Source of the DNA: Thelephora terrestris
Taxonomy: Eukaryota > Basidiomycota > Agaricomycetes > Thelephorales > Thelephoraceae
DNA: 64,000 bases
Assembly: GCA_015956445.1 (NCBI GenBank)
Contig: WIUZ02000014.1
Span: 868,001 to 932,000, forward strand
Direction of reading: 5' to 3'
Shown: in pieces, positions 9,655 through 51,363 of the stretch
Layout of the letters: every line of letters starts with the position of its first letter
Numbering within the stretch: the stretch's first letter is position 1
Translations under genes and position numbers: made by a program
The notes under the pieces: generated by a model
Seen by the model: the letters and a program-made list of their open reading frames with translations, nothing else
Told to the model about the DNA's origin: nothing
Databases searched by the model: none

Positions 9655-9825
9655 TTCGTTCAAACCTCCGTTTCCAACACCTTTTCATTCCGTTTCACTC
9701 CACCCAAACTCTCACCTCAGTCGTTCCTCATAATTCCTTCTCACGCCGCACCAATCAATCCTCGTCTTCCCCGAAACTACCCCGTTACACATCAGCCTCC
9801 TGGCAACAAGTCTTAGTTCCAAGGC

Positions 9826-11288
9826 ATGCCGGAGCCGGCAAACGTACCTCTGAATGGCGAAGGCCTTGAGCAAATGAGACAGACAATAATGGACCGCCTC
9901 CAATGCTCTGCCGACGAAGCCGCTGCAAGATTGGAAACAATGTGGAACAACGCTCTTCAGAATCTTTTAGAAGAGGCTCAACCCCCACCACAACCACTTC
10001 CCCCTTCCTCTCCCGTGCCTGGCCAACAACCTCCCGCGATGGAGAAGACAACCTTTCCGGACCTCGATCAAGATGCAATGATCGGCGACAAAGTTCCCAA
10101 TAGACCCCTCAGGTTCGCGATCAATAAGATCAAAGCAATGGAATACATCGACCTCTGGTACTTTACCACGGAGGGATGCAAGGAAGGAAGCCAGGCCGTC
10201 CCCACCGCGTCCGCAGCCTTTAGCATACTCAACACCGAAACGGGCGTCACCTTCCAGCCGGTCGACTCCGCCAAACCCTCCAAGAAAGCCATCATAGACG
10301 AACACTTAACCTGGGAACAGCTCATGACCGCAAGGCACACCTTCATCGCTACCGCAAATCAAGCTGGCTGGCCCCAGGGAAGCACGCAGTCGTTCGCCGA
10401 ATTCTACATCAACCTTGAAAGCCTTAAGGCGGATGGCAAGAACCCAAGAGCACTGATCCTCTACCACGCAGTAGTCCGCAGGCAGTGGCACGAAATGCTG
10501 AAAGCCGGAGACAAGCCCTTTAACCCCAGCCGCATCAACCAAAACCTACTCACCGACCTCGAGAATCAGATCAGAGACCACGATCACGAAGCGCTTCAGA
10601 GACAGGTAAGCCGCCTCTCCCAATGCCGGTCGCAGAGGAATCTTCAGCTAACGAATCAACCCTACGCGCACTCCAATCCCCCCCCCCCCCACTTCTGCAA
10701 CGCTACGCAACGCAACGCAACTACCTCGTGTCCTCCTACGTCTCCCCCACCATGCAACGCCCACCACCCCATGTCAACCTTCGTACCCTGGCTGATACCA
10801 CCCTTCCACAGGTGGAGATCATGGCTAACAGGGACACGTATGGTTCGCATGATGGTTATAGGGATAGGGGTCGAGCACCGCGACGAGACCGAGGCTCGGG
10901 TAGAACGAGATCCTCGAGATCAAGGTCCCCGAAGGACAAACGTCCAAACCGAACATTTCGGAAGCGCGGCTACGAACCGGAGACGTCAACCCTCCCCGCG
11001 TGCCCAGTATGCCTCAGCCGCAAGAAACACGACATGCCCATCAGGCAGTGTCAGGCTCCCACCCTCTGGGACGAAGCACACAAATCCCGATGCACCAGAT
11101 CGGAAGACGGCCGCCTCATTGACAAGGCTGGTCGAGCCCTCTGCATCAACTGGAATCAAACCGTTGGTTGCACCGAAAAAGCCTCTCGTCACATCCACGA
11201 GTGCTCGGGATGTGGCGAGTCGTCTCACGGTGCTCAGGAATGCCATCTTGCAGAGAAGGCAAACCCCTCTCACACCGCTCGCCGCTGA
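9826..11288 (+). CDS. Ngaro gag-like protein, split over two frames
   Basis: The ATG at 9826 starts a Gag-like region (FPDLDQDAMIGDKVPNRPLR, WYFTTEGC, HLTWEQLMTARHTF, FAEFYINLE). Around 10620-10690 the coding character moves to the -1 frame, which encodes an arginine/serine-rich stretch (RGRAPRRDRGS, SRSRSPKDKR) and cysteine/histidine clusters (CPVCLSRKKH; CSGCGESSHGAQECH) before TGA at 11286-11288. A run of 13 C residues at 10678-10690 sits in the overlap. The original frame stays open through to the RT, so a single 1131-codon ORF spans both. The shift may be programmed or a one-base change in the C run. Expected role: nucleic-acid packaging in the cytoplasm. Confidence 0.7.
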
Positions 11289-13221
11289 TCAGTGGCATAG
11301 CGCCCTCGCCTCATCACATCTCCTGTCAAAGTACCCGCTGATACCCAAGTTCATACGACACGGCGCCTTCGCAGGCATCCCACGAATATATCACTCCTTC
11401 ATCCCACTTAATAAACATTCTACGGAAGATTTATCAGACGCTTTCCATGATATAATACAATCAGAATTTAATAAAGGAAGATACTTAGGCCCCTTCTCAC
11501 AAGAAGAATTGGAACGAGAAATAGGCCCCTTCCAATCTTCTCCGCTGTCGCTCGTTCCTAAGGCTGGAAAGCCTGGTAAATATCGCCTCATCCAGAATCT
11601 ATCCTACCCCCATACAAACCTCCCCATCCCCTCAATCAACTCCCAGCTAAACTCAGATGACTTCCCATGCACTTGGGGCACCTTCCGGACCATGTGCACA
11701 CTCATCCAAGGGCTCCCGCACGGCGCGCAAGCGGCTACTCGAGACATAGCAGAAGCGTACCGGATAATTCCCTTACACGAAAGCCAATGGGCCGGGGTCG
11801 TAGTTCGGATCTCAAACGACCCATCCTTATTCGCACTCAACACGAGTAACTGCTTCGGAGGAGCTACGGCAGGCGGACTATTTGGCCTCTTCGGAGACGC
11901 GCTGGCAGATGTAATGCGAGCAAGGGGAATCGGCCCAATCCTAAAATGGGTAGACGACTTCTTATTCGTCAGAATCCCACGAGAAAAAATCCCGCAATAC
12001 AACGTCGCGAGAAGCAGTGGCCGACGCATCATTCTCGACAACGGAGGCAGGCAACAAACAGGTGGACGCCTATGGTACAAAGGGAAAGCTCGTGCAGACC
12101 TAGGAATGGAACATTTTGCCGAAGATTTATCTTGCCCAATACTAGACATTGGGGAGTACCAAGAGAATGGCCTCGTCTACCCATACAGCTTTGAAGAAAT
12201 CAACGAAATCACTGCGCCACTGGGAATACCTTGGGAAATCTCAAAAGACACACCCTTCAGCTCAGTGGTCGTCTTCGCAGGTCTAGCCTGGGACTTAGAG
12301 GAAAAGACGGTAGCGCTGCCAGACACGAAAAAAGTGAAATACTCTAAGGCCATCACGGAATGGAAAAGCCGACCAACCCACAACCTTGAAGATGCTCGCA
12401 AATTGTACGGAAAGCTGCTCTACGCCTGCCATGTGGTGCCTCAAGGTAGAGCTTACCTAACCACCCTCGAAAAAATGATGGCGACGTGTCACGAGCGTCC
12501 GTTCACTCCTCGACACCCTCCCAAGCACCTTAACGACGACCTAACCTGGTGGCAAGAACGTCTCTCACAACCTTCCCTCTCCCGAGAAATCCCAGGCAAC
12601 CGGCAGTTCCATGACGTCGGGGGGTGTTCCGATGCTAGCTCGTCGACTGGGATCGGCATCACTCTCGGCAACAAATGGCGCGCCTGGAGACTCTTACCCG
12701 GGTGGAAAACAGCAGGGCGGGACATCGGCTGGACAGAAGCAGTGGGCATGGAGCTACTCGTCCGAACTATTCTCAAGTATCAGCCGTGCCCCGGAATCAA
12801 AATCTTCGGTGACAACACGGGAATTGTCGAAGGATGGTGGGCCGGCAGAAGCAGAAATGCTGAAACGAACCGAATCTTCCGCAGGATTCACAAGCTACTG
12901 GAGGAGCACAACTCAATCCTCACGACCAGATACATACACACCTCCAACAACCCTGCAGATGGACCCTCCAGGGGAGCGTACCCCCCAAGACACCTCCTCC
13001 TACCACCAATCGAGATCCCAGAAGAAATCAGGAACTTCGTCATCGACTTCGACTCTCCCCTCCAACCCTGCGAGCGCCATCCTCCTGACGGCCTTCCTCA
13101 ACAACCAAAAGAGCACCTGTCCTACACAGAGCGCTGGCGTCGGCAACAAGCGAACGCTTGCGCCGACGACCAAGCCGGCGAGACAAACGAAACGCCCACG
13201 TCTGCTCGAGGCCCTCTTTAA
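11257..13221 (+). CDS. Ngaro reverse transcriptase-RNase H
   Basis: The domain begins near PLAADQWHSALASS and continues with GPFQSSPLSLVPKAGKPGKY (template-grip region), DIAEAYRIIPLH, and the active site WVDD in ILKWVDDFLF, the DIRS/Ngaro-type variant of YxDD. RNase H follows with its acidic residues in place: GGCSDASSS, TEAVGMELL, IFGDNTGIVEGWW and NPADGPSRG. There is no ATG; it lies in the frame of the gag N-terminus and overlaps the gag stop by a few bases. It is expected to copy element RNA into the circular DNA used for insertion. Frame and catalytic residues are intact. Confidence 0.88.
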   Translation, partial: RQTPLTPLAADQWHSALASSHLLSKYPLIPKFIRHGAFAGIPRIYHSFIPLNKHSTEDLSDAFHDIIQSEFNKGRYLGPFSQEELEREIGPFQSSPLSLVPKAGKPGKYRLIQNLSYPHTNLPIPSINSQLNSDDFPCTWGTFRTMCTLIQGLPHGAQAATRDIAEAYRIIPLHESQWAGVVVRISNDPSLFALNTSNCFGGATAGGLFGLFGDALADVMRARGIGPILKWVDDFLFVRIPREKIPQYNVARSSGRRIILDNGGRQQTGGRLWYKGKARADLGMEHFAEDLSCPILDIGEYQENGLVYPYSFEEINEITAPLGIPWEISKDTPFSSVVVFAGLAWDLEEKTVALPDTKKVKYSKAITEWKSRPTHNLEDARKLYGKLLYACHVVPQGRAYLTTLEKMMATCHERPFTPRHPPKHLNDDLTWWQERLSQPSLSREIPGNRQFHDVGGCSDASSSTGIGITLGNKWRAWRLLPGWKTAGRDIGWTEAVGMELLVRTILKYQPCPGIKIFGDNTGIVEGWWAGRSRNAETNRIFRRIHKLLEEHNSILTTRYIHTSNNPADGPSRGAYPPRHLLLPPIEIPEEIRNFVIDFDSPLQPCERHPPDGLPQQPKEHLSYTERWRRQQANACADDQAGETNETPTSARGPL

Positions 13222-13387
13222 GTCCTCTGCCGCCCGCTCATCCGAACTCCTTGCAAACGTCGTAAATGATCTCTCACTCCCCTCCTTAAAACCCTCCCCA
13301 CTACGCCCCGCCTGCAGGTCGGTAGACCGACTTCGTCTCTGGAAGCCACCAAACCCACGCCACGCCCTAGACGAAAAAGGCTCCCCG

Positions 13388-14407
13388 ATGAACATAGACG
13401 AAGAAGACCTGGCCAGGATCAAAGACGTCCTCGACGAAGCCTACGCCCCGAGCACGAGAGGCGTTTACGGCGCAGGCCTGTACGCATTTCACTATTTTTG
13501 CGAACTCAAGGAAATAGAGGAAGGCCACAGGGCCCCAGCTCACTCAACGGTCCTCGCCTCCTTCATATCTCTGCTAATTGGAACATACGGAGGCAGTGCA
13601 ATTAGAAACTACGTCTATGGCGTACGCGCTTGGCACATCATCCACGGAATCGAATGGAAAGTGAATGAGATCGAAATAAGAGCGCTTCTCGAAGCGGGCA
13701 ACAAGCGGGCACCCAGAGAGTCGAAGAAAAAGAAGAAGGAAGCCTGGACCATGGATTATGTCACAAAGATCTGTGAGGCCCTTGACCCCAACGACTCGAA
13801 GGACGCTGCGGTTCTCGCCTGCCTCACCACCGCCTTCTGGGGCACAGCCAGACTGGGAGAAGTCACGGTCCGCAAACTCGACGGCTTCGACCCCTCTATT
13901 CATGTCAAACCCTCTGACATCAAGTTCGACATCCCGGATAGAAACCAGCTGAAGCAAACAACCATCTTCATCCCCTGGACTAAGGTCGCAAAGGAGAAAG
14001 GAGAAGAGATCTTCTGGGCCAGGCAGGATGGAATCACGGATCCGCTGACCGCCTTGAAGAACCACATCAGAGTCAACGCCCCCCCTCCCGACAGCCATCT
14101 CTTCTCCCACAAACAAGGCGACAAACTGCGCCCAATGACACGTTCCATCTTCCTTACCAGAATCAACCAAATTGTCACAAGCAAGGACCTACCTAAGCTC
14201 TCTGGCCACGGCATCCGAATCGGCTCAACCCTGGAATATCTACTGCGAGGAGTGCCTTTTGATGTCGTCAAAGCCAAAGGCAGATGGCAAAGTGAAGCGT
14301 TCAGGGGCTACCTACGAAAACACGCTCAAATAATGGCCCCATACATCCAAGCCAACCCAAATGCCTACGACTCCTTTGTGCGATACGCCATGCCGCCCAT
14401 TCGTTGA
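13388..14407 (+). CDS. Ngaro tyrosine recombinase
   Basis: The ATG at 13388 gives about 340 residues covering a full phage-integrase-like fold: an N-terminal SAM-like region (YAPSTRGVYGAGLYAFHYF) and a catalytic half with the first arginine in GTARLGEV, the HxxR box in GHGIRIGST, GRWQSEAF, and the nucleophile tyrosine in FRGYLRKH. All key positions are present. Open protein-like sequence in the same frame starts further upstream (about 13060, ILLTAFLNNQ), so translation may begin within the 3' end of the RT-RNase H ORF. It should insert the circular cDNA by site-specific-type recombination, which explains the absence of a target duplication. Confidence 0.88.
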   Translation: MNIDEEDLARIKDVLDEAYAPSTRGVYGAGLYAFHYFCELKEIEEGHRAPAHSTVLASFISLLIGTYGGSAIRNYVYGVRAWHIIHGIEWKVNEIEIRALLEAGNKRAPRESKKKKKEAWTMDYVTKICEALDPNDSKDAAVLACLTTAFWGTARLGEVTVRKLDGFDPSIHVKPSDIKFDIPDRNQLKQTTIFIPWTKVAKEKGEEIFWARQDGITDPLTALKNHIRVNAPPPDSHLFSHKQGDKLRPMTRSIFLTRINQIVTSKDLPKLSGHGIRIGSTLEYLLRGVPFDVVKAKGRWQSEAFRGYLRKHAQIMAPYIQANPNAYDSFVRYAMPPIR

Positions 14408-34150: not shown

Positions 34151-34862
34151 GAATTTATCAAGTGTAATCGTAGGGTGCCAGTTCTACACTCTTTCTCCCT
34201 GTTTCTCTCACCTTGATGAGCTTCTTTTCAACCTGATCCCTCGTGAGATTCACCCAGGGTATTTGATACCTGATCACACACCAGATATCCTCATCAAATT
34301 TCATTTTTTTGAGGGTGGGGCTACATTGGTTCGCGATCCTCATCGCTCCCTCCGTAGTGGGATCCAAATACTCGGGCTCTCCGGATCGGATCTTCAGGGG
34401 GGTGACATAGAGCACATTGAGTTTTGTGGCCTTAGACAATAATTCCCCGATCAAATCCTGGAACTCGTAAATTCACTGCAGAACTGATCTTTGGCCCAGA
34501 ACTCACCAGGTGCCTAAACCTGATCCAGATCGAAAGCCGTCTCAATCCTTTTATCCCAACACATAAATCACCCAATGCCTGCGGAGAGATCAACAAGCGG
34601 TGAAGAGAAAAGTTCCTAAGGTGTGACCCATGGGCAGAAACGAGAGCTGTGATGAAGTTGTCCATTTGGGCTCCCGTGTCTGTGACTGTGTCGGAACCGC
34701 AGAGCAGCAGACATTCTAACGTCGACGAAGCAACCAGCGAGGATACATCCTCTTCCCACGCTGAAGTAGAGTTGATGGTTATGGTCAGAGAAGTCAACCG
34801 ACTTAGCAGATGTGGTTTCATCCGGCACTGTCTGTCAAACTCGGGCACATCCTTCGAACATA

Positions 34863-34873
34863 CGATCAGGTGC
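34863..34873. repeat. LINE target-site duplication, left
   Basis: CGATCAGGTGC, directly before the poly-T that begins the LINE. The same 11 bp occur at 41108-41118. The empty site in the paralog reads AATCAGGTGCC. Confidence 0.85.
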
Positions 34874-35616
34874 TTTTTTTTTTTTTTTTAAATTCTGATT
34901 TAACGTGCTACAGCAACTCCTAACCTACTGCTCATCCGTATGGACAGAACACGTGGTAAAACACTAAGTAATACCAACTCCTACAAAGACAGACATCCCA
35001 TTTTAGCTACGCGGAGGTAGGGAAGAAAAAGAGAAAGTCCATGCAACTACCGAATTCGGGGTTCAGAGCTACATACAAAGGAAAAAGGGGCATAGAGGGA
35101 AACGAATCCGGTTTGGGCATGCTCTGCGAAGGAGACAGGGTGTGGGAAAAATTTGGGGCATTGGCCCTGCATGTTGTGGTGGAAAAATTTGAATGCGCTC
35201 CATAGAAAGAAGGAGGCAAGTGGTGGGGAATAATAAGTGGGAACGAACCTCCATCGATCGAATTCCTGTATGTCCTGCCGTCCCTCAGTCAGGGGCAGGT
35301 GGTGTCGGTGTCGATGAAGGCTCAAGTTCGGGAGTTGCATAGAAGGGAAAGGGGATAAGGGCGGGCTACCGGGTGTGGATCCTTGTCCAGCGGCGCATCA
35401 GGAGGGAGCAGGTTGGCATGGGGGGCCAATAGCTGTGCAAGCTCCCTAGCGTCAGCGGAGGCAAAGCGCAAATACGAGACTAGTTGCGTCTCCGATGCGT
35501 CTTAGAAGGGGACCCTATACACTGCGGTGTCCAGAGGGTAGCGGGTTGTCGGTGATGGTGAGGTGCGTGTAAAGGAGTGTGGGATAAAATAAGGTAGGAA
35601 AAAGAAAGTAAAGCTG

Positions 35617-36684
35617 TCAAATTTTGTAAGCAATAATCGCCAACAAAACAAAACATGCAAATGTGAGGGCGAGCGGGAGGCTGTCCACGACGTAGACCAC
35701 GGTTTCCTTGGAGACCAGGAAGCCCGCTAATGAGAGAAGCTCTCCTGAGGGGATGGAGGAGATGGAGGAAAGGGAAGGGGAGGGAGGGGGTTTGGGAATG
35801 GGGGAAGCTGGTCGTTTGGCGTGTGCCTCCTTAAATAACTTTTCGATCAAGTTATCCGGGAAAACATTGACGACGTGGATGGGAACCCTAGGGTTCTTCC
35901 GCTTCTTGATGGCTGCGAGGCAGCAGTCGTGGCAGGGGGCTGGAACGGGGTCGGTGATGGGATCAGCGATAAAGTGATCAGGTGGTGGGGTCCTTGGACT
36001 GTAAGATAGTCCGCTCCGTTCTGATTGGATCGGTTGAACTGGACGTTGATGGTTGGGGATGACCCTGGAAGCGTGCCTGATCGGGGGTCGGACCGTGCGA
36101 GAGGAGTGATGGGGTGGCGCTGATCGTTGGGGCAGGTCGAAAAAGGGTTGTGACGATCTGAATTGATCGCCGTGGTGGCTCGGTTGCAGTTGGTTGTCCA
36201 ATTCGGAGGGGTCTCGACCCATGTTCCTGACGATCTCCGTGACCGGAGTGATGTTGCTTCTGTCGTTCCATTCGTCGATTCTCTGTCGTGCTTGTTGCCA
36301 TAGTGGTGGGGCTAGATCCTCTGGTTGGGTGGTTGGGGTCCAATGGATTTCGGGAGTCACTGGTTCGATTTTTGGGACCAGGTCTAGGCTCACCTGTCGC
36401 CGTCGAATACTTCCGGGAAAGAGCGCCGGATTCACTGAGGAATGTGACGAGGTGTTCGAGAAAATCCTTTTTGAGGAGATTGGACGTTGGCCACTTGCGA
36501 TGAGTGATTCGCGGCGCATGTCGTTGAAGGACTCCCCGAGCATCTTCGAAAAGGGGACATGCCTTGATTGCGTGTTCTCTCGAAAGGGGGACTGGTGGAT
36601 AGGGGGTAACGTTGGTCTTGTTGCAATCACATGTTCCTCGATTGGGAATCTTGAACCGGTCGAAATATTCTGTTGTGTAGCCAT
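35617..36684 (-). CDS. LINE ORF3: overlapping frame with C-terminal membrane helix
   Basis: A 355-codon frame starts at ATG 36684 inside ORF2 and runs about 360 bp past the ORF2 stop at 35978. The first half is Pro/Ser/Arg-rich (TLPPIHQSPFRENTQS, RQRIDEWNDRSNITPV). A cysteine pair (CHDCCLAAIKKRKNP) and a short amphipathic segment (DNLIEKLFKEAHAKRP) follow, then a hydrophobic C-terminal helix (LPLALTFACFVLLAIIAY). The part after the ORF2 stop is not constrained by ORF2 yet stays open and protein-like. That favours a real gene over a shadow. I know of no function. Confidence 0.55.
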   Translation of the reverse strand: MATQQNISTGSRFPIEEHVIATRPTLPPIHQSPFRENTQSRHVPFSKMLGESFNDMRRESLIASGQRPISSKRIFSNTSSHSSVNPALFPGSIRRRQVSLDLVPKIEPVTPEIHWTPTTQPEDLAPPLWQQARQRIDEWNDRSNITPVTEIVRNMGRDPSELDNQLQPSHHGDQFRSSQPFFDLPQRSAPPHHSSRTVRPPIRHASRVIPNHQRPVQPIQSERSGLSYSPRTPPPDHFIADPITDPVPAPCHDCCLAAIKKRKNPRVPIHVVNVFPDNLIEKLFKEAHAKRPASPIPKPPPSPSLSSISSIPSGELLSLAGFLVSKETVVYVVDSLPLALTFACFVLLAIIAYKI

Positions 36685-39600
36685 GTCCGGTGATGAACTG
36701 GGTGAGGCGGGAGGTGATGGGACGGTTGACTTTCTTGAACCACTTGGGTGGTTTGAGAGAGGGATGTAGAACTTGGGAGTTTTTGAAAAAGAGGGAGTCG
36801 TCCTTTATAGGATGGTCCTCGATGTGTTCTTTCCAGTTCTTGATGGGGTTCTTCTCTCTGATCTCCGATAGGACGTGAGAAAGACTGGCAAAGGATTGGA
36901 TAGGTTTGAGTTTGGACTTAGCACCTGCCTTGGCGAGGCGGTCCACAATGTCCATTCCTTTGGATCCTCTGTGGCCTGGGGTCCAGACTAGTGAAAAGGT
37001 GATTTCGGGGTTGGTTGTGAACATTTCATAGATGGCGTTTCGAAAGTTGATGGAGGACTGTTGTGAAGGGTGTGGAGCAGGGTCGAAGATGATGGAAATG
37101 GCGCTGGAGTTTTCCGAGTACATTTTGATGTTGTTGATTTCGGGGTGGTTCTTCATGTATTGAAGGGCCCCTCTGGCTCCGCGTGAAATGGCGAACATTT
37201 CGGCGTCAAAGTTCGACGCCCGATCAGAATACGGTTTTGAAACAGAGAAGCATTTCTTGAGCTTCCCTCTTCCCACGGCATGGTGATAACCTGTGACGGC
37301 GTATCCAGTATGGTGACCGGTGTTCCTCTTGTTGGGGAGTCTAGATCCGTCAGTGAATATGGTAAGGCAGGAGGGGTCTTGTCTTCGGCGTGTGAAGGTG
37401 ATGTTTTGATTGTGGACCAGGGATTTCCTATCTGCTTTGGCGCATACTTCTGGGTCGATATTGAGCCGATTGCCGAACATGGGAGAGGTGGTGCAGAAGG
37501 AAGCAGGGTCGCAGTGGTCGTGGTAGGGATATTGGCGCTCCGTGTCGGGCTGGAGGGTGGAGGCGAGGAGTGTGATCTGGGAATGTTTTTGGGGGTTCTT
37601 CGTGGGTTTGACACGAAGGAAAGGGGGTCTGATGAAAGGAATGTGAGTTTTGGGGCCTAGGTGGGCTCCCGGGACTCGGATGTGAAGTGGGGAGGAGGGT
37701 GGGATGAATGATGGTGGGAGTCTGAGTGAGACTTCGGATGAAAGCGGTAGCCGGAATAGTCTTGCTGCCGAGGACTCAAATAACTTATTGATAGTGACAT
37801 CGATGGGGGGGATAAAGGAGGCGATGTGGAGAGCTTCTGTCTGTGAGGTGCGAAATGCTCCGGTGACCCTTCGTAGGCCCAGGTTCTGGACTGTCTGGAG
37901 CTTCTTGATGAGAGTCTTCTTGGGATGATGGGGGTTGTACCATAGTTGGGAACCGTAGGTGATGACTGGGATGACACATGTTTTGAAGAGGAGACGTAGG
38001 TGTTCCTGATTGATTCCTGTGACGGTGTTGCCTAGACAGGAAAGGCCGGAGATGATGTTCTTCCCTTTTTTGCAGAGTATATCGGTGTGATCTTTGAAGG
38101 AAAGTTTCCTATCCAGGTAGAAGCCGAGCCATCGGATGTATTTGGGCGGTGTGATGGTGATAGGTTTCCCTTCAAGGACCGTTGACAAAGAGGGCGAAGA
38201 GTTGTGCTTCTGACGCCACGAAAAGTGCATGAGGTCCGATTTGTCGGGATCAATGTGCATGCCTAGTGAGTGGAAGAGGGACTCGGCCTTTTCCAACGTG
38301 GCTCTGAGGGTGATGATGTTTTCTTCTAATGAGTCGGATATAGCGAGGAAGCCCACGTCGTCGACGTATGACCGAGGGGCAACAGGAAGGCCAGAGGAGG
38401 AGAGGATGGGATTGGCGTTGATGGTTTCCAGGACTATGGAGGCGTAGATGCACGATAGGACAGGAGAGGCTGGTGATCCTTGTGGGACGCCGACCTTGAG
38501 ATGGAATGATGGTGAAAGATATTCGTCCAGACGGATTTGTACTTGGCGGTCTGTCAGGAAAGAGGCAACCCAGTTACAGATTTCCCTTGGGAAACCTTTA
38601 TCCCAAAGGGTGGATATCATCTTCTTGTGGTCGACGTGGTCGAAGAAGCCCTTGATGTCGATTGCTAGGAAAGAAGAGACAAGACCTTGTTGTCTTCCGG
38701 TGTGGATGTCATGAATGAGGGAGAGGCCTGCGTCCAGGCAAGATGCGTTTGATCTTCCACCAAATTGGTTGAATGGCATGAGGTCGAATTTCCCTGAGTC
38801 GAACAGAAGTCTTTTTGTGACAATCTTCTCAACCAATTTTCTGAGGCATTCGATAAGCTGGATTGGGCGGTGTGAGCGTGGGGCTGATGGGTCTCTCTTG
38901 GGCTTGGGGATAGCTAATACCAGGGAACGTTTCCATCTGGGATGGTGGATCCCTAATTGGACAGATGCTTTGATGATGCTGTTTAGTTTGTCAGGTTGGC
39001 TCGAGTGGGCCCATTTGAGTACTTTGTAGCCTAAACCGGAAATCCCAGGTGCGGACGTGTTGGAGAGGTTTTTGAAAGCGAGACTGATCTCTTGCTCTGT
39101 CACCGGGAGGAAGGGGCGGGATGGAGATTGATTCGAGGGAGGGGGTTCTGTGTCAGGGTCGTCTCTGGTGGGTCCGGAGAGGGGAAACCATGTGTTCGCA
39201 AGAAGCTCGGCTTTGTCCTTGGAGTTCGTAGCCCAAGAGCCATCATGGTCCTTTAGAGCAGGGGTTAGGGTTTTCCGTTGGCCTCTGTACCAAGAATTGA
39301 GTCTCCATAAGTTGGTGGTAGTGGTGACTTCGGAGGCGTATTTCATCACGTGTGATCTCTTGGATTTCTTGATCTGGTACTTGAGTTGTTTGTCTGTGAC
39401 CTTTGCTCTGAGGAAATTGTGAGAAGAGGGTTGGGACCTTGCTTTGTCTCGAGCTTTCTGGGCGGTGCGAAGGGCGGATTTAACTTCCTTGTCAAACCAT
39501 TTGGCTGCTTTAGGAGATGACTTGTGCCTCAAACATGTTGCTTTCGAGGCGGAGATCATGCTATCCATGAAGATGTCAACGGCTGAAGTGAAGGTGTCCT

Positions 39601-40591
39601 TGTCCAGTATGACTTCGGGGATGGCGAAGCGTCTCCATTGAAGAGTCACTTCCTTGTTGAATGCTTTTGTCCAATCAGACATGTTGTCGTCGTGAAAGAG
39701 GAAAGAGGTGTCGTCGAAGGGGAGGGGAGAGAAGCCGATCTTCCACGTGATGGGGTAATGGTCAGATCCGGTGTGTCTGTGGTAGTTGACTTGGAAATCG
39801 GAGATCCGAGGGATAGAGGAGGGTGATGCCCAGGTGAGATCAAGTACGGATTTGTACTCTTTTTGTGTCTTGCTGTTGTATCTGTAGAAGGTCGTATTGC
39901 CTTTGTCGTTAATGATAGAAAAGCCGTGGTTGGACATCCAATTGACCAGAGACTCGGACTCGTCTGTGAGTTTGTGATCGTGTTCTTCTATGGACCAGAG
40001 AGGGTGGTGGAGGTTGAAGTCACCGGTGATGATGATCTCGGTGAAGGGGAGTGTGGCGGAGAAAATGATGGGCAGAGAGGCAGAATCCTCGGGGTTATAA
40101 ACATTGATGAACAAGATAGACGAGGAATTGAAGTTGACTTCGAGGGCTTGAACATTAGGATTGGAGATGATGTCCGATCTGTTCTGGACGGTCCAGCCCG
40201 GGTGAGACTTGGGGACGTAGACCGCTACTGAGGGTCTGTGTGGAGGTGCGAAGTCAGGGGAGATGCTGATCCAGTCTTTGTGTGAGGGGAAGCCTAGGAT
40301 CGGCTCGCCCGAAACGACATCCATTCCTATGCAGTAGTAGGAGACTTCCTGTATGAAGAAGATGTCTGTTTCCGGACCAAATGAGTTGAGTAAGGAGTGG
40401 ATGGTTTTGTAGTCTTTCCTGCAGTTCTGGGAGCATACCCAAAGCTGGTTGGAGGAGATAGGGAATGAAGGGGGGTAGGAAGAGGAAGATGGTTGGGAGA
40501 CGGGGACATATAAGTCGTCTTCGTCGATATTAGGTGAAAAGCGGTCTAGTTCGGCTAATAAGTTATTCATAGTGAGGTCGTCTTGATACAT
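35978..40591 (-). CDS. LINE ORF2: endonuclease-reverse transcriptase-RNase H
   Basis: 1537 codons from ATG 40591. The apurinic-type endonuclease comes first (residues about 50-300: FFIQEVSYY, ITGDFNLHHPLW, GSDHYPITW). RT follows with FLAIDIKGFFDHVDH, GVPQGSPASPVLS and the active site SYVDDVGF. A thumb region (WLGFYLDRKLSFKDH, LRRVTGAFRTSQTEAL) leads to RNase H (FTDGSRLPN, NFDAEMFAISRG, MYSENSSAI, DRLAKAGAK). The third RNase H acid is Glu in SEN where Asp is usual. A Cys/His cluster (CDCNKTN, REHAIKACPLF) closes the conserved part. The last 150 residues are low-complexity and overlap ORF3. It nicks genomic DNA and primes reverse transcription at the nick. Confidence 0.93.
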   Translation of the reverse strand: MYQDDLTMNNLLAELDRFSPNIDEDDLYVPVSQPSSSSYPPSFPISSNQLWVCSQNCRKDYKTIHSLLNSFGPETDIFFIQEVSYYCIGMDVVSGEPILGFPSHKDWISISPDFAPPHRPSVAVYVPKSHPGWTVQNRSDIISNPNVQALEVNFNSSSILFINVYNPEDSASLPIIFSATLPFTEIIITGDFNLHHPLWSIEEHDHKLTDESESLVNWMSNHGFSIINDKGNTTFYRYNSKTQKEYKSVLDLTWASPSSIPRISDFQVNYHRHTGSDHYPITWKIGFSPLPFDDTSFLFHDDNMSDWTKAFNKEVTLQWRRFAIPEVILDKDTFTSAVDIFMDSMISASKATCLRHKSSPKAAKWFDKEVKSALRTAQKARDKARSQPSSHNFLRAKVTDKQLKYQIKKSKRSHVMKYASEVTTTTNLWRLNSWYRGQRKTLTPALKDHDGSWATNSKDKAELLANTWFPLSGPTRDDPDTEPPPSNQSPSRPFLPVTEQEISLAFKNLSNTSAPGISGLGYKVLKWAHSSQPDKLNSIIKASVQLGIHHPRWKRSLVLAIPKPKRDPSAPRSHRPIQLIECLRKLVEKIVTKRLLFDSGKFDLMPFNQFGGRSNASCLDAGLSLIHDIHTGRQQGLVSSFLAIDIKGFFDHVDHKKMISTLWDKGFPREICNWVASFLTDRQVQIRLDEYLSPSFHLKVGVPQGSPASPVLSCIYASIVLETINANPILSSSGLPVAPRSYVDDVGFLAISDSLEENIITLRATLEKAESLFHSLGMHIDPDKSDLMHFSWRQKHNSSPSLSTVLEGKPITITPPKYIRWLGFYLDRKLSFKDHTDILCKKGKNIISGLSCLGNTVTGINQEHLRLLFKTCVIPVITYGSQLWYNPHHPKKTLIKKLQTVQNLGLRRVTGAFRTSQTEALHIASFIPPIDVTINKLFESSAARLFRLPLSSEVSLRLPPSFIPPSSPLHIRVPGAHLGPKTHIPFIRPPFLRVKPTKNPQKHSQITLLASTLQPDTERQYPYHDHCDPASFCTTSPMFGNRLNIDPEVCAKADRKSLVHNQNITFTRRRQDPSCLTIFTDGSRLPNKRNTGHHTGYAVTGYHHAVGRGKLKKCFSVSKPYSDRASNFDAEMFAISRGARGALQYMKNHPEINNIKMYSENSSAISIIFDPAPHPSQQSSINFRNAIYEMFTTNPEITFSLVWTPGHRGSKGMDIVDRLAKAGAKSKLKPIQSFASLSHVLSEIREKNPIKNWKEHIEDHPIKDDSLFFKNSQVLHPSLKPPKWFKKVNRPITSRLTQFITGHGYTTEYFDRFKIPNRGTCDCNKTNVTPYPPVPLSREHAIKACPLFEDARGVLQRHAPRITHRKWPTSNLLKKDFLEHLVTFLSESGALSRKYSTATGEPRPGPKNRTSDSRNPLDPNHPTRGSSPTTMATSTTENRRMERQKQHHSGHGDRQEHGSRPLRIGQPTATEPPRRSIQIVTTLFRPAPTISATPSLLSHGPTPDQARFQGHPQPSTSSSTDPIRTERTILQSKDPTT

Positions 40592-40648
40592 GAGGGACGT
40601 TTGCTTGGACGTATTGAATATGGTTTGGAATGGAGAGTAGGGGAGGGA

Positions 40649-41092
40649 TTAGATTCCTCCGCCTCGTTTGAGGGCATAGGGACGGCCATTCGGGCGGCGC
40701 TTGTTAGAGGGTTTCTGGTGCGAGACGGTGTTCCAACCAGCGGCCGGGGCTCGTAGGGTGCTTGGGTCAAGGATGGTTTGTCCGATGGGGACTTTCTTCT
40801 TCTTTCTGGCCTCTGCGATTGCAGTGCTTCGGGATTGGCAGTCTAAGCTGTCAGAGGGGTGTGCTTGACCACATCCGCGGCAGGAGAAGTGGATACATCT
40901 CCAGTTGGCTGAGCTGATCTCATCAATCGGTTTTTTCGAGGCAAGGCATTTCTGGCAGTTGGTGTTGTGGGTGAGTTCTGTATGTTTGGTGCTTCCACAA
41001 AGGCGACAGACTTCTGTGCAGTGGGAGTGGGTGGCGTCCAGCATCCAACAACGTTGGCATTGTTTTAAGTGAATCTTTTCGGTCCACTCAAC
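40649..41092 (-). CDS. LINE ORF1 fragment with zinc knuckles
   Basis: The frame is open from the element's truncated 5' end (VEWTEKIHLKQCQRCW) and carries a chain of CCHC-like fingers (CQRCWMLDATHSHC, CRLCGSTKHTELTH, CQKCLASKKP, CRGCGQAHPSDSLDC), then a basic tail ending at 40649, 57 bp before the ORF2 start. The N-terminal part of ORF1 and its start codon are missing. Intact ORF1 proteins of this type bind element RNA. Confidence 0.85.
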   Translation of the reverse strand, partial: VEWTEKIHLKQCQRCWMLDATHSHCTEVCRLCGSTKHTELTHNTNCQKCLASKKPIDEISSANWRCIHFSCRGCGQAHPSDSLDCQSRSTAIAEARKKKKVPIGQTILDPSTLRAPAAGWNTVSHQKPSNKRRPNGRPYALKRGGGI

Positions 41093-41107
41093 TGCGCGTA
41101 CGCGGGT

Positions 41108-41118
41108 CGATCAGGTGC
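41108..41118. repeat. LINE target-site duplication, right
   Basis: CGATCAGGTGC, matching 34863-34873. Host F-box sequence (CATTCGCAGGTG) continues after it. Confidence 0.85.
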
Positions 41119-46949: not shown

Positions 46950-49900
46950 TCACTTCCGGTCACAGAGACAATACACTATAGATTCTTTCTGAGGATACAG
47001 ATGACAGAAATCCATAATCAAAACCTCTCCAGTTTCATAGCCAGCAACCAGATATTGCCCATCCCATTGAGCCACAGAAGGTCCTGAATACCTCCCAAAT
47101 AGTTGGAAAACCACTTTTCCAGTGATTTTGTTTGTAATTTTAGTGGGTTTTTGGGTAAATTGCAGATGAGCTTTCTCTAAGGGTAAATTGGGCAGTAGGA
47201 CTGGGGAGGAGTCTGAGACTCCAAAGTCCAACCCTTGGATGTAAAAGCCCAAACATTCAATCCAGAGTTTTGAGCCATCCAAATAGAAGAAATCTCCCCA
47301 TGCCCCCCATTTCAACTCAACTTTGCCCATGGGCTCTCCTGTCCATATTGACCACACTTCAATGACACTGTGACCTCTCAGGCAAAGAACCTTTAAGCCA
47401 TCCCCTAATATCCTGAGGCTGTTGCACCCTGGGACCTCTACTGTTTGGAGGAGTTCAGCTTTCTCAATGTCCCAGATGTGAATCTTCCCACTCTCATGCC
47501 AAACAATGATTAGCTTCCCATCTGCCAGCTGGACATCTCTCAAGTTATCACTAGCTGGGGTCTGGAAGGTTGCTTTGCAGAGGCCAGTCAAGATATCCCA
47601 GGTCTTTACTACCCCTTTTGAATCACTTGAGATAACAATTCCATTCCCTGGGTTCAGACTGATAGACTTGATTGGGGCTGAAGTAAGTGGAGTGGACTCT
47701 TGATCAGGGACAACTTGGTCTTTTTGTGGAACACCAATCTGCCAAAACCTGGCTGATTCATCCCCAGATGTTGAAATCAGGGTGGAGGGAGAACAGAATA
47801 TAATGTCCCAAATATCAGATGGTGTAGTGAATCGCTCAGTGGGGTGAGAATCTGGGCTGGTGGTATCCCAGACATACATCATATGCTCAGTAGCAACTGC
47901 AACAAGCCTGCTGTCAGGAGAGAAACAGCATTTTCTAGTGGCTCCATCATCCACAGAGAATCCAGCTACAGTCATTCTAGTATCAGAGGATTGGACTGTA
48001 ACTGCATCTCCATTGCACAAGACAAATTGAGTACCATCTGGGGAGAAGGCAATGCAAGAACCATCATATGTTGGACCAATCTGATGGCCATTGATGTCCC
48101 ACTGCCTGACCTTGCCCCCTGATACAGATATGAAGTGTTGGGGGTTTGTTGGAGAAAAGGTGACATATTCTATAATCTGTTCTTGCTCAATGATACAGGT
48201 GTGTTCCCCAGTATGACAATCCCACAAGAAGATTGTTCCACTATCATCCCCTGAGGCAATCATAGCAGAGTTTGGTGAAATGGAAACAGACATGACATAG
48301 CCTCTGTGACCATCAAATGTCTTGATGACTCCACCAGTTTGCACATCCCAGAATTTGACAGTCTGGTCATCACTTCCAGAGATGAAAAACATCCCATCTG
48401 ATGAAAAGGTGGAAGATCTAACATAATCAGTATGACCAGAAAGGACAGCATTTTGGCTGCCAGTAACTGCATCCAGGATGATGATATTCCCAGATGACAG
48501 GCCAACTGCAACAGTGTTGTTCCAGTGTGAGATAGACCGTGGGTCACTGCCAAGAGCAACAGTTCGAGAACATTTTCCCCACCCAATTGGACCACCCCTG
48601 ACCACCTTGACTACATTTGAGAGTTCTGCACTGTAGTACTTTTGAAGCCATGATGAGGGAGGAGAAAATAGGAGGGCAAAATGGTATAAATTGGAAGGAG
48701 AGTCATTGACTGCATCAAAGTGTTCCAACAGGAATCGTTGGGTGTCATTTGTCCACTTGCAAATAACTCCTGCCTAAACAACCATTATTATGGGTCTCAG
48801 TAATTTATTTAAGTAGCACTCACCAAAGCACACCATTTCTCAACATCATTCATGGCATAAACTCCAACACCAAGTTTTCCTGTAAGCACAAGGACCTCAA
48901 TCCAATACAACAAGCTTGTTGTAGAGAATCCATTGATTGCCTCTGCTATTTCCTTGGCATGGGGGCTGCTTCCAGGGATCTCCAGAAGGTGCTTGGTCCA
49001 AAAGTGGCAGGCATATTCTAGGGCATCTCCTATTTTATTGCTTTTTTGGGTGGAAAGGTCCTCCCCCTCATTAAGAACAATATGGTCTTCAAGGTCACAG
49101 ATGTTTCTCTTCAACCTTTCCTTCATCAACCTCAGGCATGACAGCAAAATTTCTGCATGATGGACCTTGGGCTCCACAAAAAACCATTTGTCCCCACACC
49201 GGTTGGTATCTGTGAGGAAGTCAGGAAATGACTTGTGAAAGGCTTGAACTGGGTCTGATGTCTTCTCTGGGTCTGGTACAAGGAGGAGGGAGTGGAGGGA
49301 GCGGAGGGTAGTAGGGATGTTGGACATTTGGAGGAGGTCTGAAAGTGCTCCCACTGAGAGAGGGTTGAACACCAGCACCACTGTTCCAAGGACAGTCTTG
49401 AAACCAGAGTAGAAATCCTCCTCACTTGGATCTACACCATGGGAGGCTTGCTCCAGGATTTGGGTGTAGAGGCAATCAACACCTGACTTTCCTTCCTGGG
49501 AAGTATTTTGTGGGGAGGAGATGATGAGGGTAAGCCTCTGAGTGGGAAGGTGTTTTGGGGATCCAACAAATTTGACAACTGTTGAGGCATAGATGAACAG
49601 CCCAGCAGCCTTCTTGCAGAGAACATCAAGGTCATCTGAGATTGGCCATTGCTCTGTCAAGTCACAGTCGCTCCTTGTCTCAGCAATCTTGGCCAACTGA
49701 GTCCTGAGATATAGTTTGATATCTGCATCAACAGATGATCGTTCTACATCATGGAGCCTGAGCACTTCTGTGATAGGGCGGAGTGGTTTGAGACGGAACC
49801 CAGAGCGGATGGGGGGTTCAGGACGTCCGGTGATGAAGAATTTGACCTTGGGGATCTCGTCTGTGTAGCGGGAGAGCATGGAAAGGATGGCGGATGCAGG

Positions 49901-51363
49901 TTCTTTATCCTTGCACTCGTCAAGGGCATCAATGATGATAAGGGTTGAGATGGAGGCAGATTTGAGTGGACCGACAATGAGCTTCTCCATCTGTGAGCAG
50001 AGGGACTCCTGTCCAACATGGGGTGTTGCCCTCAAGACAGGTAGTAACTGCTGACGGAAATGGGGATAGCTGTAGGCAAGCTGGAATGCAAGGGTCGGGA
50101 AGATCTTCTGGAGATTGCTCCGGTCCACAAAGTCTCGTGAACAGAAGAAGCTTGCCCCGAGCTTTCCGTCCGCAAAGCTTGTTTTGGCGAATGTTTGTGC
50201 AATGGTGGATTTTCCGGTACCGGCCAGGCCGTTCAGCCAGAAAACACGTTGGTCTTGTTTGTTTGTCAACCAATGTTCAATTTCCCTGAGGACGTTGTGC
50301 CTTGTTCCACCCAAGCATCCCTGCCTGTTCCCATATTGGTATCCAGCATCCGGGGTGTGATACATTCTGTCAAGAACGGCAATGTCTGCAGATTCCTATA
50401 CATCGATTAGTCTGTGAGGGTAAAAGCATGGGGGTCTGGCGCACGATAAGCTGACAATTCTTGTTATAGATATCTTGCTGTAGAGAAGTCTAGAGCGAAC
50501 GTCAGAGGCGCGAGTGGTGCATCTTCGAGACATACCTGATAATCCAACATTGCATTGCGGATGTCCTCAACTAGTCCGTTAAGCCTATCGGCGTTCTCGA
50601 GATTGCTAAAAAAGCCTTCGATGTTCCCTTGTTTTGCCATCTGGTCCAGACCTTGATTGACAGCTCGCAATTTCCTAGTGAGCATGTATCAGAGGAGCCG
50701 GCACTTGGTACTGTAGGGCATGGTCTAACCGTTCGAGATAATTTCTCCTTGATTGCTCTTCGGTGTCACCCTTGAGAGCAGGTGCACAGAGTGACCCAGC
50801 GAGCGCACGGATTCGGGGCTCTAATGATTCTATTGATCGCTTATTTGCTGTTGTTTTCTGGCACATCTCTGAGCGACGTGAATAGCAGATGCAGGGGGAG
50901 GTGTGTACCTCGCAATTTTCGAGGAGGAAACAGAGCCCTCCCGCGACAGACTTGAGCGGAGGAAAGGCATCTGCGCAGTCTCTGACCCCACGAAGGAGTA
51001 ATTTGGCCGTGGGATATGCGGTTTCATTGAAGGATTTTGTGACTTTGCTGTATCCCCTGCTGAGAATGGATCGAAATCGATCGGGAATGGAACGGCGGTC
51101 TGCGCCGAGCAGAGAAGGGCGGTCAGATAGACAATCTAGAAAGAAATCGTTTGCATACCGTCTGATCGCTGGTCGCGAGCAGCAGAGGGACCAGGAGTCG
51201 TCGAAAACGAGGCATCGATCTGAAGATCTGGAGTTGATTCCGTCGTGGGACTTGACAGGGCCAGATCAACTTCTCCTGTGCCCTCGGTGGGGCTTATCTC
51301 GCTCCTAGCTGTGCTCCGCTCTCGACGGCCTTTCGGTATACTGAGAAAATCTCGCAAACCCAT
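46950..51363 (-). CDS. NACHT-WD40 NLR-type protein
   Basis: From ATG 51363 (MGLRDFLSIPKGRRERS) several short exons encode a Ser-rich head and a helical N-domain (NKRSIESLEPRIRALAGSL; FFSNLENADRLNGLVEDIRN) joined by introns to ESADIAVLDRMYHTPDAG. The NACHT domain has Walker A GLAGTGKST, Walker B LIIIDALDECKD and the FFITGRPEPPIR strand. An intron at 48774-48823 (WCAL | AGVICKW) leads to a beta-propeller with WD repeats (LSGHTDYVRSSTF, SGSDDQTVKFWDV, FDGHRGYVMSVSI and others) to TGA 46950. Fungal proteins of this plan act in non-self recognition and cell-death signalling. One N-terminal junction (about 50880-50920) did not resolve. The 3' 2.7 kb is nearly without CpG. Confidence 0.8.

Follow-up and report, generated by a model that had tools for sequence, protein, structure and literature searches.

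The window, the whole 64,000-nt stretch of Thelephora terrestris DNA that was analyzed, contains a LINE copy on its minus strand, which runs from position 41107 to 34890 and is followed by an A16 tail (34874..34889). An 11-bp target site duplication (GCACCTGATCG) flanks the copy at both ends (5' copy, 41108..41118; 3' copy, 34863..34873), with the element start at 41107. This copy is 5' truncated and retains the 3' part of ORF1 (approximately 152 codons plus the stop; 40649..41107), the 1537-codon ORF2 (35978..40591), and a 3' untranslated region (3'UTR; 34890..35616). All these features are on the minus strand, as are those described below unless stated otherwise. Pfam matches of ORF2 to RVT_1 (1.2e-25), Exo_endo_phos_2 (1.6e-20), and RNase_H (8.6e-7) revealed the endonuclease and reverse transcriptase (RT) of a LINE, together with RNase H, and the combination of 5' truncation, poly(A), and target site duplication is the signature of TPRT. 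The C terminus of ORF1 is Cys/His-rich by sequence; a Pfam search for CCHC-type zinc knuckles gave nothing above the cutoff. In the copy on contig C1, ORF1 is much longer; two overlapping loci there have open stretches of 813 and 475 codons. The element most resembles fungal two-ORF LINEs, putatively of the I/Tad1 type.

ORF1 and ORF2 of the window copy are in the same frame (40591 to 40651), with one TAA plus 57 nt before the ORF2 ATG, and for the passage between them both readthrough and reinitiation seem possible. Elsewhere in the window, an RT/RNase-H-like frame on the plus strand (9817 to 14407) is followed by an overlapping frame that by eye has a tyrosine-recombinase-like end. These frames had no Pfam match at an E value of ≤0.001 and perhaps represent a DIRS-like element. 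On the minus strand at 46950 to 50395, a NACHT/NPHP3_N frame adjoins a WD40 frame, resembling an NLR-like fungal gene.

A preliminary description of this DNA had proposed that a third frame of 355 codons begins within ORF2 and continues about 360 bp beyond its stop. This was confirmed: ORF3 (355 codons plus the stop, with an ATG start; 35617..36684) overlaps ORF2 by 707 nt and extends 361 nt beyond the ORF2 stop. Its frame is +1 relative to that of ORF2, and its start lies inside the ORF2 motif GHGYTTEYF. Two candidate start codons, M1 in this motif (36682..36684) and M56 (36517..36519), are each ATG in all eight covering loci of the nine examined. The last methionine of the window ORF3 is M155, upstream of the ORF2 stop, and therefore the part of ORF3 beyond this stop must be entered from upstream. 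The ORF2 His codons overlapping the two ATGs are CAT in 8 of 8 loci, with 41 CAC and 12 CAT codons in the window ORF2. We do not count this as evidence for ORF3, since variation at His codons is rare (5 of 50 across four copies).

A six-frame search with ORF3 across the same 40.6-Mb genome (60 contigs) gave at least 19 matches. Among the matches listed, four cover all 355 residues (the window copy and copies on contigs C1, C9, and C56), and none of these four has a stop. The remaining 15 matches listed map to L012, a 5'-truncated element with one base lost in ORF3; to L013, which has a nested insertion; and to the older broken loci L014/L015 (both on contig C13, perhaps one element), L016, and L017. 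Together with the window copy and the loci L009 (C1), L010 (C9), and L011 (C56), these are the ten loci used below. ORF2 of L009 has two stops and that of L010 a frameshift; ORF3 is open in both. In the six young copies, the 1-nt deletion in L012 and the nested insertion in L013 are the sole frame-breaking ORF3 lesions. L013 and L016 are broken near ORF3 residues 143 to 149 and L017 near residues 84 to 105. A shared insertion in these three loci, such as an intron or an ancestral module, was considered and rejected: the inserts were compared, proved unrelated, and were taken as nested insertions.

Some copies are mosaic, those noted being L009, L010, L012, and L016. When L009 is compared with L016, 84 of 181 synonymous ORF2 sites differ in the ORF2 core (37399 to 36700) but only 4 of 78 between 36684 and 36379, a contrast suggestive of recombination or template switching among LINE lineages. 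In L011, identity is lower in the two parts of ORF3 called segments B and C below.

For the analysis of selection, ORF3 was divided into segment A (36379..36684), overlapping the conserved C-terminal domain of ORF2; segment B (35979..36378), overlapping the ORF2 tail; and segment C (35617..35977), beyond the ORF2 stop. At each variable site, every minor base contributed one count, and the counts were set against the opportunities offered by the three forward frames, with transitions weighted. All counts come from one genome and from few, related, and mosaic copies, decayed ones included, in which sites are not fully independent, and so the P values are to be read as guides.

In segment C, the six young copies showed 30 synonymous and 25 other changes in the ORF3 frame, against an expectation of 17.4 and 37.6, which corresponds to a dN/dS-like ratio of 0.39 (P = 3.8e-4). 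With ten loci, the counts were 77 synonymous and 77 other changes (expected, 44.8 and 109.1), and the ratio was 0.42 (P = 4e-8). For the remaining two forward frames, the ratios were 2.26 and 1.68, and 2.06 and 1.14. Pairwise counts among five copies were in line with this: beyond the ORF2 stop, 9 of 10 pairs had ratios of 0.12 to 0.41, the exception being the window copy versus C9a (1.17, from 8 differences). In a further pair table, used for the rows listed and the pooled lines, the pooled segment C ratios were 0.35 for ORF3, 1.88 for the ORF2 frame, and 1.06 for the third frame. Thus, purifying selection on the ORF3 frame past the ORF2 stop, on which the earlier proposal depended, was detected in both sets of copies, and each of the four complete same-genome copies, the window copy included, has ORF3 open.

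The distribution of changes over codon positions, measured against the window copy, agreed. In the ORF2 core, it was uneven (P < 0.05) for six of the seven loci, with a peak at ORF2 position 3. Unevenness with the peak at ORF3 position 3 was seen for four of the eight loci in segment B and for seven of the nine loci in segment C. In the 3'UTR, one of eight loci was uneven. In the ORF3 frame, the 3'UTR had ratios of 0.98 (six copies) and 0.89 (ten loci), with no excess of synonymous change. A different 3'UTR frame had ratios of 0.68 (P = 0.051) and 0.75 (P = 0.03), which indicates that the method is somewhat noisy and sets the scale of false signals. One antisense frame was also low, with 0.54 in segment B and 0.51 in segment C. 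We took it as the shadow of ORF3, because it shares third positions with ORF3 and carries stops (five in segment B and two in segment C of the window copy).

ORF3 might be a frame that is open by chance, with its apparent constraint stemming from RNA elements, shared ancestry, or the alignment. The small number of related, mosaic, and partly decayed copies, whose sites are not fully independent, and the 3'UTR frame reaching P = 0.03 speak for this explanation. However, the signal has a periodicity that follows one frame and changes phase along the element, which an RNA element would not produce, and we consider a chance frame highly improbable. The mutation pattern suggests that ORF3 is maintained by selection.

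Nine loci and the six young copies were compared in the overlap with ORF2. In segment A, ORF2 is constrained and ORF3 weakly if at all: the six copies gave 0.47 for ORF2 and 1.12 for ORF3, and the conditional ORF3 ratio was 0.68 (P = 0.15) in the six copies and 0.81 (P = 0.24) in the nine loci. One among the subsets tried reached 0.34 (P = 0.028, uncorrected). Given this weak constraint, translation in the ORF3 frame may not include the first approximately 80 residues. In segment B, ORF3 is constrained and the ORF2 tail looks neutral: the six copies gave 0.33 for ORF3 (conditional, 0.31; P = 1.1e-7) and 1.43 for ORF2, and the nine loci 0.44 and 1.29, respectively. When the ten loci were scanned in 120-nt windows, with starts at ORF3 residues 61, 81, and 101, the ORF2 ratio rose from 0.55 through 1.00 to 2.42 and the ORF3 ratio fell from 1.22 through 0.50 to 0.29. 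According to these ratios, the constraint switches from ORF2 to ORF3 near 36440 to 36380, give or take half a window. ORF3 residues 141 to 200 are near neutral (0.82 to 0.98). The final approximately 130 codons of ORF2 are open yet look neutral and would be an apparently dispensable tail.

This hand-over point lies near where the ORF2s of relatives end. Among 32 ORF2 relatives, which include Ceratobasidium entries, 13 show an SGAF/FSRR-like motif, and none of these 13 extends more than 30 residues past it; the window ORF2 runs 143 residues beyond the motif. Furthermore, in the distant same-genome LINE copies L030 and L032, which have intact C termini, ORF2 ends soon after the motif, and no overlapping frame of at least 80 codons with a strong hydrophobic segment was found at these ends. 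In related copies, the ORF3 frame is open and evolves under purifying selection. Our reading is that this family of fungal EN-RT-RNaseH LINEs has a third, selected coding region that overlaps the ORF2 tail and reaches past its stop.

The ORF2 C termini of the relatives deserve a separate remark. The final residues of those with the SGAF/FSRR-like motif (from the set P0001 to P0016) are Pro-Pro in 7 of 13 and Pro-Thr in 2 of 13, and both L030 and L032 end in KPP*. Conceivably, Pro-Pro before a stop could slow peptide release and so tether the nascent RT to the mRNA that encodes it (cis preference).

The ORF3 product is rich in Pro (48 residues) and Ser (41 residues) and was predicted to have a single strong hydrophobic segment at its C terminus. 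The highest 19-residue Kyte-Doolittle mean was 2.28, at residues 333 to 351, and the best mean within residues 1 to 325 was 1.17. A single-sequence AF2 model was poor overall (mean pLDDT, 46.7); 2 of 36 blocks reached a pLDDT of 75, residues 131 to 140 and residues 341 to 350, the latter being the highest (76) and lying in a modeled helix at 336 to 354. Hydropathy, this model, and conservation agree on a predicted membrane helix at about residues 333 to 354 (35623..35688). By hydropathy only, the product has the layout of a tail-anchored protein, with one predicted transmembrane (TM) helix that lies no more than about 30 residues from the C terminus and no N-terminal hydrophobic signal. The preliminary description had this helix followed by a lysine. 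The hydrophobic helix held up; the ending had to be amended, since the frame ends in ...SLPLALTFACFVLLAIIAYKI, that is, helix, then K, then I.

The helix region is nearly invariant across copies. Residues 318 to 355, which include it, had a ratio of 0.17 in the six copies (12 changes, P = 0.0045) and of 0.33 in the ten loci (44 changes, P = 2.8e-4), and in the old copy L017, in which the ORF3 pieces are 40 to 70% identical, the helix is retained and still hydrophobic. In these comparisons, the predicted C-terminal helix shows itself to be among the most constrained parts of ORF3. Upstream of it are a C-x-x-C-C motif, a well-conserved stretch around KKRKNPRVPIHVVNVFP, and a basic motif, KKRK (residues 260 to 263; 35896..35907), which is kept in 7 of 9 covering loci (KKQK in L013 and TKRK in L017) and which we take to be NLS-like by its consensus. 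We conclude that ORF3 very probably is genuine coding sequence whose product has a C-terminal anchor.

ORF3 had no Pfam match at an E value of ≤1, and protein searches with the single sequence and with a four-sequence alignment gave no homologue at an E value of ≤0.001. The protein search is weak as a negative, because only candidates sharing words were scored. Moreover, gene callers tend to drop or reject frames with long overlaps (here, 700 nt), which makes the lack of an ORF3 homologue weak evidence. Viral contigs searched with ORF3 and part of ORF2 contained no relatives, and bacterial and archaeal genome contigs contained no relative of ORF3. A PDB search by sequence gave one ORF3 match (E = 0.19), taken as chance, and Rfam had no match over 34800 to 37000.

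These results also bear on the idea, raised in the preliminary description, of an env-like acquisition, in which ORF3 would have come from a virus as an env-like or fusogenic protein and would enable cell-to-cell movement. A C-terminal hydrophobic anchor is indeed present, and small TM-bearing ORF3s of bdelloid LTR elements have been discussed as possibly env-like (PMC5408684). However, there is no hydrophobic stretch of signal- or fusion-peptide strength in residues 1 to 325 (maximum, 1.17), only about two residues follow the helix, and no Pfam family (E ≤ 1) or homologue was found in the collections searched. These findings lend the idea no support, and we regard a captured env-like protein as very unlikely.

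How ORF3 is produced can be considered in the light of the selection profile. One possibility is that ORF3 is a C-terminal extension of ORF2, reached by +1 frameshifting near 36440 to 36380, in which case some or all of the RT would carry the membrane anchor. In favor of such a fusion, ORF3 is in the +1 frame, the constraint passes from ORF2 to ORF3 close to the end point of the relatives' ORF2s, and the ORF2 tail beyond this point looks neutral. The fusion would match the selection profile about as well as a separate protein does. In L012, a 1-nt loss in an A run at 36468 (window-projected) joins ORF2 and ORF3 into a 507-codon frame, but L012 is one copy and does not prove the mechanism. Slippage at this A run was rejected as a candidate, since the run is not conserved (AAGAAGG in L011). 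By-eye inspection of the copies recognized no conserved slippery site, and RNA folding in three windows gave z scores of -1.95 (7 of 200 shuffles as good), 0.65, and 0.52. The region 36455 to 36366 is mixed: ORF3 position 3 accounts for 4 of the first 6 changes and ORF2 position 3 for 4 of the following 7, a pattern that dual coding would give, although the numbers are small. We consider the fusion possible but somewhat doubtful.

Two other routes into ORF3 were examined and discarded. A splice donor GTGAGC at approximately 36393 has its GT in the window copy and L017 only, among 7 covering loci. A shift at the ORF2 stop itself is unneeded, since segment B upstream of it is already constrained in the ORF3 frame.

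Because no shift site was recognized, the folding was unremarkable, and the pattern at 36455 to 36366 was mixed, we lean toward a separate ORF3 protein made from an internal ATG, and we put the probability of this reading at roughly 55%. The near-neutral residues 141 to 200 point the same way, as they make an unconstrained ORF3 N terminus less odd. Translation of the separate protein might begin at one of the two conserved ATGs, at 36684 or at 36519, reached by a noncanonical route, for which internal entry or a shorter mRNA would be our guess. The helix would then hold the product in a membrane, and its long, presumably mostly disordered Pro/Ser-rich part would face the cytosol or nucleoplasm. 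As a guess at its function, ORF3 may help to bring or hold the RNP of the element at a membrane, for example the nuclear envelope. Fungal nuclei generally stay closed or half closed at division. A tentative model, rather unlikely in its full form, is that the LINE has overprinted a membrane-anchored third protein, or an anchored form of the RT, on the end of ORF2, and that KKRK and the tail anchor dock the RNP at the nuclear envelope and thereby give access to chromatin.

To our knowledge, descriptions of LINEs normally give them one or two ORFs. Among the matches listed in a search of the open literature, titles and abstract openings named no LINE with an overlapping, membrane-anchored ORF3. 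If our reading is true, LINEs would have a coding arrangement new to this class, in which a third ORF under selection overlaps ORF2 and terminates in a membrane anchor. Such an ORF would tie a LINE type to a membrane and would offer a direct handle on how LINE RNPs find the nucleus and chromatin. Gene callers would hide such overlapping frames, and more of them may exist.

Third ORFs are known from other elements. Human L1 also has a third ORF, ORF0, which is short, antisense, and located at the 5' end and is not known to have a membrane helix. Among RNA viruses, accessory proteins like HEV ORF3 resemble the present ORF3 in being small, membrane-linked products of a frame overlapping another; a sequence relation is not claimed. 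A passage of PMC5009743 gives mammalian LINEs three ORFs, and passages of PMC7998251 concern other element types. Bdelloid LTR retrotransposons and Terminons carry extra ORF3s, some types with TM domains (PMC5408684). Like the ORF3 described here, these are family-specific extra ORFs in retroelements, but their hosts are LTR or Penelope-like elements; the present host is a LINE, in which the overlap of ORF3 with ORF2 measures 707 nt. The closest comparison is with the fungal two-ORF LINEs of the I/Tad1 type. The element shares with them the EN-RT-RNaseH ORF2, the Cys/His-rich ORF1 C terminus, the 5' truncation, the A-tail, and the 11-bp target site duplication. It differs in the end of ORF2, which in the 13 relatives showing the motif stops within 30 residues past it and here extends 143 residues beyond it, overlapping an ORF3 that appears to be under selection.
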